From positions 1 to 64,000 of the forward strand of contig DUNO01000068.1 in NCBI GenBank assembly GCA_012839295.1: a stretch of 64,000 nucleotides of DNA. The letters are read 5' to 3'. Positions 16,216 through 45,838 of the stretch are shown here, piece after piece (position 1 is the stretch's first letter; each line of letters begins with the position of its first letter). The notes under the pieces are model-generated. The model had not been told where the DNA came from, ran no database searches, and saw only the letters and a program-made list of their open reading frames with translations. Both the position numbers and the translations under genes were made by a program. The stretch comes from Clostridiales bacterium (lineage in GTDB: Bacteria > Bacillota > Clostridia > Lachnospirales > Lachnospiraceae).

Positions 16216-17505
16216 TTAAAGCTGCAGGATGCCTTCCTCATATAGCTTTTGGAGGGAGTTAAGGATACCGAATTTGGCATGGTACCAGGTAAGCCCGCCC
16301 TGGAAAAATACAGTATAGGGAGGTTTAACCGGGGCGTCGGCGGATAATTCGATGGAGGAGCCCTGGACGAAGGCTCCTGCTGCCATGATCACATCACACT
16401 GGTAGCCGGGCATTGCCCATGGTTCAGGCACCACATAGCTGTCCACCGGCGCGGCGGCCTGGATGCCGCGGCAAAAGGCAATGACTGCCTCCGGTGAATT
16501 CAAGGTAAGGGCCTGTATGATATCATAGCGCTCCTCCGCCGCATTTGGATGCACGCTGTAGCCGAGGGGCTCATATATATTCGCCGCATAGATAGCTCCC
16601 TTCAGGGCTCCCGCCACTACGGTCGGTGCGAGGAAAAGCCCCTGGAATAAGGAAGGGGTGATACCCAGGGTTGCTCCAACTTCCTTTCCAAGGCCAGGTG
16701 CGGTCAGACGGTATGCGGCATTTTCCACATACTCTGCTTTACCGGCGATATAGCCTCCAATGGGTGCCAGCCCGCCTCCCGGGTTTTTAATCAGGGAACC
16801 CACACATAGGTCTGCACCGACCTCCGTCGGCTCCATTATTTCAACAAACTCGCCGTAGCAATTGTCCACCATGCAGATGATGTCCGGCTTTTGCTCCTTC
16901 AGGAACCCGACCAGCTCCCCGATCCGCTCCACGGATAAGGTGGGGCGGCTGGCATAGCCCTTCGAGCGCTGGATCGCGGCAAGCTTGGTCTTTGGACCTA
17001 CGGCCGCCTTGATTCCCTCCCAGTCAAAGCCTCCGTCCGGCAACAGGTCCACCTGGGAGTAGGTAATACCAAACTCCGCCAGGGAGCCCTTCGATGGCGT
17101 GATGCCGATTACCCCCTCCAGGGTATCATAAGGCTTTCCAACGGGGGAGAGGATCTCATCCCCAGGCCTTAAGTTCCCGGATAAGGCAACGGTGAGGGCA
17201 TGGGTGCCGCTGATTAGCTGGGGCCTTACAAGCGCATCCTCCGCCCTGAATACGGCAGCATATACCTGTTCCAGGGTATCCCTTCCCATGTCATTATAGC
17301 CATAGCCGGTGGTTGCGGCAAAATGGATATCGCTCAGACGGTTGTCCTGCATTGCCTTTAATACCTTCAATTGGTTAAATTCCGCTATTTCATCGATCCT
17401 TTGGAAACGGGTCCGCAGGTTCTGTTCTATCCCAGCTCCATATGAGATGACCTTAGGATCCAAGCCAAGTCCCTGGTAAGCCTGATTTATATTTGTGTTA
17501 TCCAA
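16216..17505 (-). CDS. Methionine gamma-lyase family PLP protein (YnbB type)
   Basis: PLP-dependent protein of the Cys/Met-metabolism fold, often named aluminium-resistance protein; its substrate is not established. The 429-residue length is normal. The PLP lysine segment is GSLIKNPGGGLAPIGGYIAG, with TGYGYNDMGRDTLE and RPQLISGTHAL as other family motifs. The start is TTG at 17505, with GGG 8 bases upstream supplied by an R1 repeat. It follows miaA as in Bacillus, but hfq, which commonly lies between the two, is absent. Confidence 0.88.
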   Translation of the reverse strand: MDNTNINQAYQGLGLDPKVISYGAGIEQNLRTRFQRIDEIAEFNQLKVLKAMQDNRLSDIHFAATTGYGYNDMGRDTLEQVYAAVFRAEDALVRPQLISGTHALTVALSGNLRPGDEILSPVGKPYDTLEGVIGITPSKGSLAEFGITYSQVDLLPDGGFDWEGIKAAVGPKTKLAAIQRSKGYASRPTLSVERIGELVGFLKEQKPDIICMVDNCYGEFVEIMEPTEVGADLCVGSLIKNPGGGLAPIGGYIAGKAEYVENAAYRLTAPGLGKEVGATLGITPSLFQGLFLAPTVVAGALKGAIYAANIYEPLGYSVHPNAAEERYDIIQALTLNSPEAVIAFCRGIQAAAPVDSYVVPEPWAMPGYQCDVIMAAGAFVQGSSIELSADAPVKPPYTVFFQGGLTWYHAKFGILNSLQKLYEEGILQL

Positions 17506-17563
17506 TTTCTACACCCGTGCCTTTCACTTTTTGATGACCTATCCCAAAAGTGAATAGGCCTTA
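17506..17563 (-). repeat. R1 leader repeat, copy a (upstream of the YnbB-type gene)
   Basis: On the minus strand GGCCTATTCAC pairs imperfectly with GGATAGGTC, followed by AAAGTGAAAGGCACGGGT and then the TTG start 8 bases after GGG. The same layout occurs before trmD (39472-39526) and the blaI-like gene (45752-45796). Just upstream lies a separate perfect 9-bp hairpin, GTTTGAAAG/CTTTCAAAC, at 17571-17595. Confidence 0.75.
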
Positions 17564-17612
17564 ATAAATAGTTTGAAAGTGAATTGCTTTCAAACTTCCG
17601 AAGAACTTCTCT

Positions 17613-38649: not shown

Positions 38650-39471
38650 TTAATAAACATCATAATTCTTTTGGAAAATAAGTTTTGTAAGGAACTCCCC
38701 TTCCTCCTCCGTCAAGTCAGCTTTTTCCAGAAGGTCAGGGCGGCGTTCATAGGTCCTTAGGATGGATTGCTCCCGCCTCCAGGCATCAATATTTGCATGG
38801 TGCCCGGACAAAAGCACCTCAGGTACCCTCTTTCCCATAAATACCTCAGGCCTTGTATATTGGGGATATTCTAATAAATTTCCATGCAGGGATTCGAACT
38901 CGGAGGATACTTCATTATTTAGTACCCCCGGTACCAATCTGGAAATGGCGTCGATCATGACCATGGCCGGAAGCTCTCCGCCGGTGAGGACATAGTCCCC
39001 GATGGATATATTATCGGTAACAATCATATCGAGGACACGTTCATCGATCCCCTCATAATGCCCGCACAGGAAGATCAGATCCTCCTCCTGGGCCAGCTCC
39101 CCGGCCAGGTTTTGGTTAAAGATACTGCCCTGGGGCGTTACGTAAATTACCCTGGGCTTTTTGTAAGAAGCATGCCCTTCTTCTGGAAGTCCATCTTCTC
39201 CAGCTTCTTTTTGGATTATATTTTCCTTTGAGATTTTTATGTGGTTAGCCAGATATCCATAAGCCTTGTAGACCGGTTCAGCCTGAATTACCATCCCGGC
39301 ACCTCCGCCGTAGGGATAGTCGTCCACCCGCTTGTGCTTATCCTCACTAAAATCCCTGATATTTACCGTATTAACTGAGATCAGTCCCTTATCGATGGCT
39401 CTTCCCGTGATACTTGTATTCAGTCCCTGCTGGATCATTTCCGGAAAGAGTGTCAGTACATGAAAATTCAT
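38650..39471 (-). CDS. trmD: tRNA (guanine-N1)-methyltransferase
   Basis: Makes m1G37 in tRNAs, which prevents +1 frameshifting; a knotted SPOUT enzyme. The protein has 273 residues. Motifs are [23 protein letters not shown], the AdoMet knot ([27 protein letters not shown]) and [10 protein letters not shown] segment of about 25 residues near 83-108 ([19 protein letters not shown] and following) is longer than usual. The start abuts an R1 repeat, with GGG 7 bases upstream. It lies between rimM and rplS. Confidence 0.96.
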
Positions 39472-39526
39472 AGTTATACCCGTGCCTTTCACCTTTGATG
39501 GCCTATTCAAAAAGTGAATAGGCCTT
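39472..39526 (-). repeat. R1 leader repeat, copy b (upstream of trmD)
   Basis: The cleanest R1 copy: a perfect 10-bp hairpin GGCCTATTCA/TGAATAGGCC (39524-39515 and 39509-39500), then ATCAAAGGTGAAAGGCACGG and GTATAACT directly before the trmD ATG. The GGG sits 7 bases from the start codon and is the only Shine-Dalgarno-like sequence there. Confidence 0.85.
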
Positions 39527-43181: not shown

Positions 43182-45395
43182 TTAATGTCCAAAGCCTTCT
43201 ATCTTCCACCCTGTCTGAGGTGATTCATAAACCATGCTGCAATCCCAAAACTGCTCCCCGTTGTTCATGGTTTGTTCCTTCTCATATTGAAGGTCCACAT
43301 AGACCCGGAAGGTTTTGGTGTCCTTATCCGGTTCTCCGACTGGTTCAACCTTTGACAGCTTTGCGGATTTCAGGTTAAAATTTGATTTTGTTGACCCCAT
43401 AACGGCATTTATAAAAGGCAGTTCGACCCCTTCATTGAATAGCTCCTCATCCCTCATATTGACGGATAAATTATCAAGCAGGGTTTTCTTCGACATACAG
43501 TATTTTGCAGTCACGGAATCTTCTTTATCCAAAGCCCTGAAATATTCTTCAATAATCTGTTCCGGCTCCAGCAAAGACAGTTTTTCTTCTTCAGCGCCCC
43601 TCTTGACTTTGTCCGCAAGCCAGCCATTAACGGTCTGTCCTGTCACTTCCTCAAAGCTGTTTCCTTTCAGGCTGCAGGCGTTAAAGGTACTGTGCCTCCC
43701 GGCACTGATGAAGGCTCCGATAATTTTACCTCCGCTTTTTACGGCAATTCCCCTGCAGTCCTGGATCGGATAAAACTTCTGGGGCAAGCTCTCATGGACT
43801 TTATAAATTTCAATGTCAAGGTCGGCGGTATTGGAATATGGGCTCATGTCAAGGCCGATATCCTTTGATAGCTCATTGTGATAGGCAAAATAATATGGAT
43901 TTGGTTGAAAGTCGGACAGGGTATTGATGTCGCCCAGCTTATTTTTCATCCCATTTATCTGGTAATCAAGGGTCCATCCATAGGCTTTGAACAATGCTGC
44001 GGCATCCCTGCCTGCTATGTCGAAGGTAATATCCGCATGCTCTAATAGTGAATCAACATAGCGTGCGAAATCTGTCCCTATGTCGGAAAGGCCGCCGTCT
44101 CTTCCGATATAGGCCTTCTCATAGAGAGTATCATAGTAAAGCTGGCAGCTGTATCCGCCGGTCCTATTTGACACTTCAATCTGGTACTGGTTCGTATGAT
44201 TGTTTTCCAGGTCATCCTTATAATCGGAGGCTTTGCTTTCCCTTATGCTCCTGTCAATGTATGACACTGCCTGGAGATCGGTTGTTTCAAAGATATCTGA
44301 GGATGCAAAGCCTTTATTTCCGGAAAGAAGTGAAATTTTTACTGTATCGTATTCTGTGGTATAAGCAGCTTCCGGGGTTACGGAAGAATCGGATGCCTCC
44401 CAAATTGGCGTATCACTTTGGCTGCCCGGGATATTTTGGTCAGCAGGGGTTATTTCTGTCTGTCTGCTGATGATAAGCACGAGGCTGACCGTGGCGACAA
44501 TTATGATCGCCATAACGCTTACCCAGAATCTGGGCTTTTTATAATGCAGCACATTTTTCACTCTTTCTTTTACGCCTGTTTCACCAAAGGCGAGGGGGCT
44601 TAGCAATCCGCTTCTCTTGACCGACAGCGCCAGCAGGGAGCTGGCATAATCACTCCGGACGTCAGAGGCATAGCCCTTCATGACGCTCTCATCCGCGGAT
44701 AACTCCATGTCCTTTACCATAAGCCCATAGGAAAGCCATACAAGGGGATTAAACCAATGCAGGGCTGTGACCAAAAAGGCCAGGGGCTTTATCAGATGAT
44801 CGCGGCGTCTGATATGGGCTTGCTCATGGGCCACGACATACTCCAGCTCATTTTCACCCAGCCCTGTAGGGACGTAGATCCTGATGCGGATAAAGCCCAG
44901 CACGAAGGGGGTTTTGATCAGATCCGTTTCATAAATATTGTCTTTGATACGGATCGCGGTCATGATCCGTCTTTTTAAATGCAGATAACTGATAATCCCA
45001 TAGAGCAGGAGCACAAGAACGCCAGCCAGCCAAAGTACGGCTCCAAGCTCCAGCAGGATTTGGATGGGATTTACGCTGCTTACGGGATTAACCGGAGGCA
45101 GGGAGGTTTCAATGGCGTTATTTACAGTCCTGTCAATGGCCGGAACCCCGCTGTTTATGGAGGGCTGTCCGGAATATACAATATCCTGGGGTATGGTCTG
45201 GGGCTGCACGGGAACGGCGCTTACCGGCAGTTGGATCGTAAAGGGGCAGATGAGGCGGAAAAACACCACAGCCCAAAGGGCGTAGGAATATATTTTCGGA
45301 GCCTTTTTAAGAGCCAGGCGGATCACTATGACGATCAGGGCAACATAGCCTGCGCTAATGCTCATATTTAGAATCTCAATAAACCATTTGCTCAT
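43182..45395 (-). CDS. M56 (BlaR1-like) membrane metalloprotease with a novel sensor region
   Basis: A 737-residue sensor-protease. Four N-terminal helices and a fifth near 290-312 flank the zinc-protease motif HEQAH (190-194) with the downstream DMELSADE glutamate. The outside region (about 320-737) is not a penicillin-binding domain: it has no SxxK/KTG set. Its last 130 residues (EQIIEEYFRALDKED onward) look like an NTF2-like or DUF4829-type domain. Its ATG overlaps the stop of the BlaI-type gene. The ligand and target are unknown; resistance to beta-lactams should not be assumed. Confidence 0.85.
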   Translation of the reverse strand: MSKWFIEILNMSISAGYVALIVIVIRLALKKAPKIYSYALWAVVFFRLICPFTIQLPVSAVPVQPQTIPQDIVYSGQPSINSGVPAIDRTVNNAIETSLPPVNPVSSVNPIQILLELGAVLWLAGVLVLLLYGIISYLHLKRRIMTAIRIKDNIYETDLIKTPFVLGFIRIRIYVPTGLGENELEYVVAHEQAHIRRRDHLIKPLAFLVTALHWFNPLVWLSYGLMVKDMELSADESVMKGYASDVRSDYASSLLALSVKRSGLLSPLAFGETGVKERVKNVLHYKKPRFWVSVMAIIIVATVSLVLIISRQTEITPADQNIPGSQSDTPIWEASDSSVTPEAAYTTEYDTVKISLLSGNKGFASSDIFETTDLQAVSYIDRSIRESKASDYKDDLENNHTNQYQIEVSNRTGGYSCQLYYDTLYEKAYIGRDGGLSDIGTDFARYVDSLLEHADITFDIAGRDAAALFKAYGWTLDYQINGMKNKLGDINTLSDFQPNPYYFAYHNELSKDIGLDMSPYSNTADLDIEIYKVHESLPQKFYPIQDCRGIAVKSGGKIIGAFISAGRHSTFNACSLKGNSFEEVTGQTVNGWLADKVKRGAEEEKLSLLEPEQIIEEYFRALDKEDSVTAKYCMSKKTLLDNLSVNMRDEELFNEGVELPFINAVMGSTKSNFNLKSAKLSKVEPVGEPDKDTKTFRVYVDLQYEKEQTMNNGEQFWDCSMVYESPQTGWKIEGFGH

Positions 45396-45751
45396 TTTGC
45401 CGCCTCCTCAATCATTTTCTTGATTTGTTCCGCCTCACTTTGTGTGAGCCTCTTGTTTTGTAAAAATGCAGCCACAAAGGAGGGCAATGAATTATCAAAA
45501 GCCTTTTCCAGCAGCTGCTCGCTCTCGTATCTTTGTACCTGGATGCGTTTGACAAGAGAAGTCACGACGGCATTTTCGTTCTTTAACACACCCCGCTCTG
45601 ACAGACGTTTAATAACCGAGTAGGTGGTGGATTTCTTCCAGCCAAATTCGCTTTGGCACAGCCTGACCAGCTCTGTCGAGTTGACCGGTTCTTTTTCCCA
45701 GACAATGGACATAAAGCGGTATTCGGCGTCAAATATTTTTAAGCTCTCCAT
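45392..45751 (-). CDS. BlaI/MecI/CopY family repressor
   Basis: Winged-helix repressor, normally cleaved when its partner M56 protease is activated. The protein has 119 residues. The DNA-binding domain is FRFMSIVWEKEPVNSTEL-like (about 8-70, with KKSTTYSVIKRLSERGVL) and the C-terminal dimerisation region contains the usual cleavage zone. The start at 45751 has AGGGG 7 bases upstream, supplied by an R1 repeat. A perfect 16-bp dyad at 45797-45838 is the obvious operator candidate. Confidence 0.92.
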   Translation of the reverse strand: MESLKIFDAEYRFMSIVWEKEPVNSTELVRLCQSEFGWKKSTTYSVIKRLSERGVLKNENAVVTSLVKRIQVQRYESEQLLEKAFDNSLPSFVAAFLQNKRLTQSEAEQIKKMIEEAAK

Positions 45752-45796
45752 TTTGATACCCCTGCCTTTCAATTTTTTTGGTGCCCTATTCTAAAA
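45752..45796 (-). repeat. R1 leader repeat, copy c (upstream of the blaI-like gene)
   Basis: The minus strand reads TTTTAGAATAGGGCACC, a run of A, then TTGAAAGGCAGGGGTATCAA and the ATG. It aligns with the 3' half of the copies before trmD and the YnbB-type gene. The upstream arm of the R1 hairpin is replaced here by the 16-bp dyad. Confidence 0.7.
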
Positions 45797-45838
45797 GTCG
45801 AATGCGTTAGACCTTATTATAAGTCTAACGCATTCGAC
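45797..45838. promoter_or_regulatory. Perfect 16-bp dyad between the ABC operon and the blaI-like gene
   Basis: GTCGAATGCGTTAGAC and its exact complement are separated by CTTATTATAA. Each arm is itself nearly symmetric (GTC...GAC). It could be a BlaI-family operator. It also begins 25 bp after the ABC operon's last stop and is followed on the minus strand by TTTTAGAA, so it could serve as that operon's terminator. Both are possible. Confidence 0.75.

Follow-up and report, generated by a model that had tools for sequence, protein, structure and literature searches.

What kind of leader stands directly before genes as different as trmD, a YnbB-type gene and a blaI-like gene? The question is raised by the stretch of 64,000 nucleotides analysed here (hereafter the window). 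An earlier note, made from its sequence alone, described upstream of these three genes a hairpin or its 3' half, followed by ATCA, a further shared sequence and the start codon, and took this for a mobile or duplicated leader that appears to supply the ribosome-binding region. All three sites read as described. We consider it likely, for the reasons given below, that they belong to a family of mobile elements, about 88 bp long and apparently non-autonomous, which settle at translation starts. The features concerned are:

16216..17505, minus strand: YnbB-type gene, PF06838 Met_gamma_lyase, start TTG (family search).
17510..17597, minus strand: full-length element of type A, AAGTTTG ... GGGTGTA, before the YnbB-type (PF06838) gene (covariance-model match C80:17504-17598, E 7.8e-15).
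17513..17527, minus strand: GTGAAAGGCACGGGT, the Shine-Dalgarno (SD) region of the YnbB-type copy (sequence).
17570..17596, minus strand: hairpin 1, AGTTTGAAAG-CAATTCA-CTTTCAAACT, 10 bp, weakly terminator-like (folding; stem conserved in alignment A1).
38650..39471, minus strand: trmD, PF01746 (family search).
39475..39526, minus strand: 5'-truncated element (hairpin 2 and SD) before trmD (covariance-model match C80:39469-39554, E 7.4e-6).
39478..39492, minus strand: GTGAAAGGCACGGGT, the SD region of the trmD copy (sequence).
39500..39524, minus strand: hairpin 2, GGCCTATTC-ACTTTTT-GAATAGGCC, open form, with GAAAGG mostly free in the trmD copy (predicted fold).
45392..45751, minus strand: blaI-like repressor gene, PF03965 (family search).
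45755..45791, minus strand: diverged right half of the element, GAATAGGGCACCAAAAAAATTGAAAGGCAGGGGTATC, before the blaI-like gene (sequence; absent from the matches of model R1).

The trmD leader reads GGCCTATTC-ACTTTTT-GAATAGGCC-ATCAAAG-GTGAAAGGCACGGGT-ATAACT-ATG. At the YnbB-type locus an extra upstream hairpin and the full element precede GTGAAAGGCACGGGT-GTAGAAA-TTG, and the blaI-like leader consists of the diverged right half alone, TTGAAAGGCAGGGGT-ATCAAA-ATG. This last copy was missed by covariance model R1 at E<=0.01 and is thus the weakest of the three. (Directly upstream of it, at 45796-45837, lies a perfect 16-bp inverted repeat, GTCGAATGCGTTAGAC/GTCTAACGCATTCGAC, followed by TTTT and terminator-like by eye.) With up to three mismatches GTGAAAGGCACGGGT has five matches in the window against 1.42 expected, a number reached by none of 100 shuffles; a looser 13-mer with up to two mismatches is less striking (12 matches against 6.91 expected, with 3 of 100 shuffles equally high).

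Further copies, without which the mobile-leader reading would fall, are numerous in the window's own genome (G000; 6.36 Mb in 82 contigs, a draft assembly). The 13-base core GAAAGGCASGGGT occurs there 46 times exactly, against twice for the reversed control. Model R1 at E<=0.01, with at most 124 candidates scored per genome, yields 71 matches in G000, 27 in the sister Herbinix MAG G029, 12 in G026, 3 in G032, 2 in G024 and 1 in G025, and zero copies in the other 28 of the 34 genus genomes. Among 397 genomes of the family, GAAAGGCACGGGTN6ATG is found only in G000 (33 sites), G377 (4) and G140 (1, without hairpins). A search of 250 family genomes with R1 at E<=0.001 added one copy apiece in G206 and G296; the filters were stricter here and recover just 16 copies from G000. 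The distant copies L400 and L401 belong to other genera. In a named genome collection, which may leave out records of the window's own genome, a pattern of 20 fixed bases matched 11 stretches, all in two Herbinix MAGs (L_E1_T20_B_bin.8 and STD2_240). Plasmid and phage collections gave no element match, and the single IMG/VR match is a chance one inside a long ORF, so that a phage or plasmid vehicle was rejected.

The earlier note saw a leader with one hairpin. That hairpin (hairpin 2) is present, but the complete element measures about 88 nt and has two, one near each end; the 5' hairpin (GTTTGAAAG-N7-CTTTCAAAC) had escaped notice. In type A (alignment A1, 39 copies) the element reads AAGTTTGAAAGAAAGTCACTTTCAAAC-TATTTATTAA-GGCCTATTC-ACTTTTT-GAATAGGTC-ATCAAAAAGT-GAAAGGCACGGGTRTA, after which come three bases specific to the gene and the ATG. 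Its end is SD-like (GAAAGG...GGGU), with the first base 19 nt before ATG. Type B differs from type A at many positions (GGTTGAAAA...TTTTCAACC; loop AATTTTTT with AAAAAATT) and keeps both hairpins. A third form with a 25-nt loop that has its own hairpin is common in G029 and occurs once in G000 (L304); in G029 this loop replaces the T-rich one at L051, L060, L062, L079, L081, L082 and L088, and L036 and L088 are the same orthologous site with different loop types in the two species. Several copies are truncated at the 5' side with the 3' end intact (trmD, L035, L038, L042, L024, L086). The copy at L040 (around 1921, minus strand) has an inverted right end fused to it (CCCGTGCCTTTCAC...GTGAAAGGCACGGG), which gives a long palindrome. 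No terminal inverted repeats were found in alignment A1, where the left end AAGTTTGAAAG does not match the reverse complement of the right end, TAYACCCGTGCC. A promoter inside the element was considered and rejected, as no sigma-70-like site was predicted in the two copies scanned. Hairpin 1 scores as terminator-like.

How closely are the copies tied to start codons? In G000, ATG lies exactly 6 nt past GGGT in 33 of the 43 GAAAGGCACGGGT sites, where chance would give about 0.7 (43/64), and in 35 of all 46 cores (hand count). We then scored 88 distinct copies (55 from G000, 33 from other genomes) with at least 11 of 13 core bases and at least 12 of 17 bases of the right arm: the start lies at +6 in 70, at +5 in 4, at +7 in 3, at +8 and +9 in one each and at +11 in 2, while the remaining copies have another start codon (2), no start (4) or are cut (1). 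Since core and model searches include bases near the ATG, places were also selected by the left half alone (pattern TTTCAAACTATTTATTAAGGC, at most 3 mismatches, within the collected sequences). This gave 65 places, among them L401, which had entered via the model search; 12 are cut by contig ends and one is a chance match without core. In the 52 scorable places ATG is at +6 in 46, at +7 and +9 in one each, and an alternative start or none is seen in two each. The link between 3' ends and gene starts, as proposed in the earlier note, therefore holds in both selections. Among the 73 copies with sufficient flanking sequence, the nearest upstream ORF runs in the same direction in 51 and is divergent in 16; 6 have neither within 400 nt.

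Such a pattern might be left by untargeted insertion, with copies landing at any position and being lost unless they happen to lie just ahead of a start codon. Copies in coding DNA would indeed be lost, and 67 of the 88 copies head an ORF that has at least 40 aa or runs open to the contig end. Under this scheme, however, copies inserted further upstream than the native SD, or placed between convergent genes, should persist no less well, and full copies at other spacings are rare (6 of 52, two of these with TTG starts). The 21 copies without such an ORF, a point against the mobile-leader reading, comprise 5 that lack a start codon in range, one of these being cut at a contig end, and 16 with a very short ORF. 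Most copies that head no gene still have their ATG at +6. Because the ATG is in the same place even there, landing appears to be targeted, with SD and ATG read at the DNA or mRNA level, and we consider untargeted insertion unlikely.

Insertion itself can be read from empty sites. Orthologues were located through chimeric protein queries and a TrmD query, after which the start regions were compared. The trmD start in G029 reads ...TTGGAGAAAACT-ATG, with the element absent, and the empty YnbB-type site in the same genome reads ...GGAGGATGAACAAAA-TTG. Other filled and empty sites (with el for the element) include L020, AAAAAGGAGAAGGG[el]ATT-ATG against AAAAAGGAGAAGGAAATT-ATG; L021, AAATGGAGGAA[el]AGT-ATG against AAATGGAGGAAAGAT-ATG; and L001, GGAAAGGAGCAATG[el]AAC-ATG against GGAAAGGAGTCATGAAGC-ATG. 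L057 shows the opposite direction, G029 being filled and G000 empty. These differences were observed between species; no polymorphism within a population was seen.

For the junctions, 19 of 20 chosen filled/empty pairs were available (L038 dropped out), and the left end could be defined in 14. By eye, 12 of them show a native SD on the left flank (exceptions L036 and L081; with a mismatch in L027 and L028). When the element is excised, 3 nt are kept and the joined flanks are compared with the empty site, the length agrees within 1 nt in 8 of 14 pairs (L001, L014, L020, L021, L027, L028, L057, L079). Six pairs are less clean: L013, L056 and L060 are off by 2, L004 is longer by 2, and L036 and L081 align badly. 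A target duplication is absent from the 8 clean pairs and ambiguous in L004 and L019. Given the usual shortfall of 1 nt, the A at -4 may be native, which puts the landing point 3 or 4 nt before ATG. The pairs show insertion between the native SD and the ATG, with the final 3-4 nt ahead of the ATG still those of the gene, and the cleanest of them show neither a target-site duplication nor a loss of more than one base. SD-like sequence is also frequent over the left flanks in general: of 46 copies, 22 have an SD-like 5-mer, from a set chosen after some flanks had been seen, in the 18 nt adjoining the left end, whereas 12.5% of random 18-mers contain one, and predicted anti-SD binding of <= -7 kcal/mol is reached by 52% of the 46 left flanks against 8.7% of random ones. 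The mobile or duplicated leader of the earlier note is thus supported, the empty sites showing insertion, and the case was understated there: the element lands at a fixed point 3-4 nt before ATG and leaves upstream the gene's own SD, which the note had not seen.

Could the copies instead be ribosome-binding sites that converged without common descent? Hairpinless starts of the type GAAAGG-N-A-N-GG are common at trmD in the genus, where they make up 12 of the 24 readable trmD starts of other members (L092-L120; hand count), and in G029 cysD, argR and a ParA-like gene also have native hairpinless starts of the GAAAGG type. Because such starts occur natively, the 13-mer alone is no proof of insertion. 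Against convergence, the unpaired linker and both hairpins are near-identical base for base in the 39 type A copies, and empty sites exist. Convergence is refuted for full-length copies and has next to no probability as a general account; hairpinless cores such as that of cysD fall outside this refutation.

The genes that follow the element are of many kinds. Family searches of 30 downstream proteins matched 26 and left 4 without a match. Among the matches are FliG, an acyl-CoA dehydrogenase, a relative of the diol-dehydratase small subunit, AtpF, RNase E/G, Era, ArgR, mannonate dehydratase, phosphoglycerate kinase (PGK), TrmD, the PF06838 enzyme, the BlaI-like protein, QueH, UDP-galactopyranose mutase and a response regulator; a HypA-like protein and an FtsE-like ATPase are below the family cut-off. 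No coherent regulon is apparent among the 30 proteins searched.

How would such genes tolerate the insertion? An element inserting between native SD and start codon, 3-4 nt before ATG, should by the separation of the two alone silence the gene. The ribosome would then use the SD brought in by the element, so that expression would continue and even usually essential genes could bear the insertion, and the stranded native SD would decay. The earlier view that the leader supplies the ribosome-binding region stands as far as the SD-like end of the element is concerned; that the ribosome uses this SD is what we infer. With the 16S tail that we take to be that of Firmicutes (a 16S search in 7 genomes gave 0 matches, so the pairing is that with the assumed tail), GAAAGGCACGGGT is predicted to pair in two blocks around a 3-nt bulge at -10.4 kcal/mol, as compared to -12.2 for AGGAGG; 11% of shuffled cores match or beat the former value. 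Since native hairpinless starts share the GAAAGG-type motif (trmD; cysD and argR in G029), its working as an SD is supported. An altered anti-SD was considered too, but 288 of 349 ORFs in 464 kb of G000 have an ordinary SD under a lenient rule, which argues against it.

The predicted folds suggest that this SD may be switchable. In canonical copies GCCU.UUCACUUUUUGA pairs with UCAAAAAGUGAAAGGC, which buries the SD and competes with hairpin 2. In 65 of 78 scorable copies the minimum-energy fold pairs at least 4 of the 6 bases of GAAAGG, and the median opening cost is 4.1 kcal/mol; the trmD copy is predicted to fold open. The burying helix is re-coded between lineages, as UUCAC/GUGAA (type A), UUCAA/UUGAA (type B), UUCUA/UAGAA (L321), UUCUUG/CGAGAA (L328) and UUCCC..CUUGGG/CCCAAG..GGGAA (L400), each in the minimum-energy fold; for UUCUCG/CGAGAA in L322 complementarity is seen by eye and the best fold is another. 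A pseudoknot between the loop of hairpin 2 and the stretch before GAAAGG was dropped: the two show complementarity in most copies of types A and B, yet this pairing is explained by the nested helix that buries the SD and is the minimum-energy fold of canonical copies. In the main subfamily, rather than in general, the SD is probably regulated by hairpin 2 (open) against the longer helix that buries GAAAGGC (closed).

It might hence be argued that the element is a regulatory RNA first, a two-state leader comparable to a riboswitch or thermometer, whose copies are kept for placing genes under one control. The mostly paired GAAAGG and the re-coded helix speak for this, as does the pairing of hairpins 1 and 2 in 93.9% and 96.3% of alignment cells; in alignment A1 both the paired cells and the covariation score are higher than in any of 500 shuffles. 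In hairpin 1, two pairs are changed on both sides (7 sequences each, types A and B), though these changes may be one event, and overall there is no excess of pairs changed on both sides (3 against a shuffled mean of 3.4) or of further pair types (20 against 22.2). Further points against are the missing regulon, the burying helix that does not form in L304, L082 (25-nt loop), L324, L329, L345 and L348, the missing GAAAGG of L401 and the zero matches to Rfam (Rfam 15) in the window at gathering score. The hairpins could equally be single-stranded DNA ends, and if movement required them as DNA the signature would be no different. A leader that is regulatory in the first place seems to us doubtful, though worth keeping in view.

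What, then, moves the element? Absence of target duplication in clean pairs and a hairpin near each end recall the palindromic repeats mobilised by IS200/IS605 or RAYT proteins (HUH enzymes, no target duplication, terminal hairpins). PF01797 (Y1/HUH) matches number 3 in G029, 1 in G026 and 4 in G377, but 0 in the draft assembly of G000, the genome richest in copies, and they are present in copy-free relatives (6 in G004, 3 in G002, 1 each in G001 and G003, 0 in G005). This count has to be read with the state of the draft in mind: by hand count, 25 of 164 contig ends in G000 fall inside a copy or no more than 120 nt from one, which is what near-identical repeats should cause, and since contigs break at copies the assembly could lack a mobilising gene that is itself repeated. 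The left flanks vary, with no constant tetranucleotide or short target found by eye. A classic element of this kind is improbable in our view. An autonomous relative with a gene between the ends was also sought at 25 loci, most of them right ends without hairpins or orphan copies, and none of the ORFs upstream appeared recombinase-like by eye.

More is suggested by a second repeat family in G000, GGTTGAAAGAA ... GACCGGGTYCATGCCGGCACTTTCATGGCGATTTGTGCAGTGAAGGGCATGGACAT, in which ATG lies 4 nt past ACAT in 4 of 4 copies seen (L006, L016, L140 at 14038 on the minus strand, and L233). In L006 and L016 it sits between the core of the first family and the start codon; in L233 the ATG that follows is not the start of the gene. 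Its ends are similar to those of the first family, its interior GACCGGGTYCATGCCGGCACTTTCATGGCGATTTGTGCAGTGAAGGGCATGGACAT is different and its landing point is the same. L401, from another genus, has an unrelated hairpin between a retained left hairpin and GCACGGGTATA-N3-ATG. As both share similar ends and differ inside, the ends (the left hairpin starting GKTTGAAAGAA and the right GGCAYGGRYATA) may be what one mobilising machinery recognises. Copies truncated at the 5' side with intact 3' ends fit reverse transcription from the 3' end, although selection for the SD would give the same. As a speculation, and one that we advance with considerable reserve, the machinery might read SD plus AUG, perhaps on mRNA or the ribosome with subsequent reverse transcription, and so place a ribosome-binding site that is portable and switchable 3-4 nt ahead of the start codon; several families with similar ends would share this machinery.

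If the mobile-element reading is right, the ribosome-binding sites of dozens of genes, some of them usually essential, have been replaced by one mobile leader, which would offer a route to rapid genome-wide rewiring of translation. The element would spare its host by carrying the very signal that it displaces and may serve as a natural portable SD switch, and the fixed landing beside ATG raises the question of what recognises the site.

With respect to known systems, MITE-like sequences typically carry terminal inverted repeats and target duplications. The present element is short and dispersed like these (about 88 nt, 71 model matches in G000), whereas it has no inverted termini, no duplication was found and its landing before ATG is fixed. 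By these defining features it is not a MITE, nor is it supported as an IS200/605 or RAYT product. In translational riboswitch and RNA thermometer platforms two helices compete, one of which can bury the SD; unlike those, the Herbinix-like element is mobile, has no regulon and includes several variants without the burying helix. Searches of the open-licence PMC literature turned up neither this element nor any mobile element that lands between SD and ATG. With REP/REPIN sequences and their RAYT proteins, as described in the cited parts of PMC3733652 and PMC3116915, it shares palindromic units near genes and hairpin ends, and it differs in that no Y1 transposase was detected in G000 and the GTAG/CGTC tag was not seen at its ends. 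It resembles ERIC, RUP, BOX and SPRITE, as far as the cited passages characterise them (PMC2229807, PMC3049150, PMC10969869), in being short, folded, present in many copies, presumed non-autonomous and able to sit in mRNA leaders; among the same reports, pneumococcal small repeats are stated to be over-represented between convergent genes. The closest published analogue that we found, judged from the portions of PMC4679880 cited here, are the TAACTGA direct repeats of marine Beggiatoaceae, which lie mostly a few nt upstream of the start codons of unrelated genes, overlap the expected ribosome-binding site and are patchy between species, with no evident mechanism of spread named in those portions. 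These are tandem heptamers with little SD character, whereas the Herbinix-like element is a single unit of about 88 nt with two hairpins, an SD-like end and empty sites; we regard it as a variant of the small mobile sequences, set directly before the start codon.
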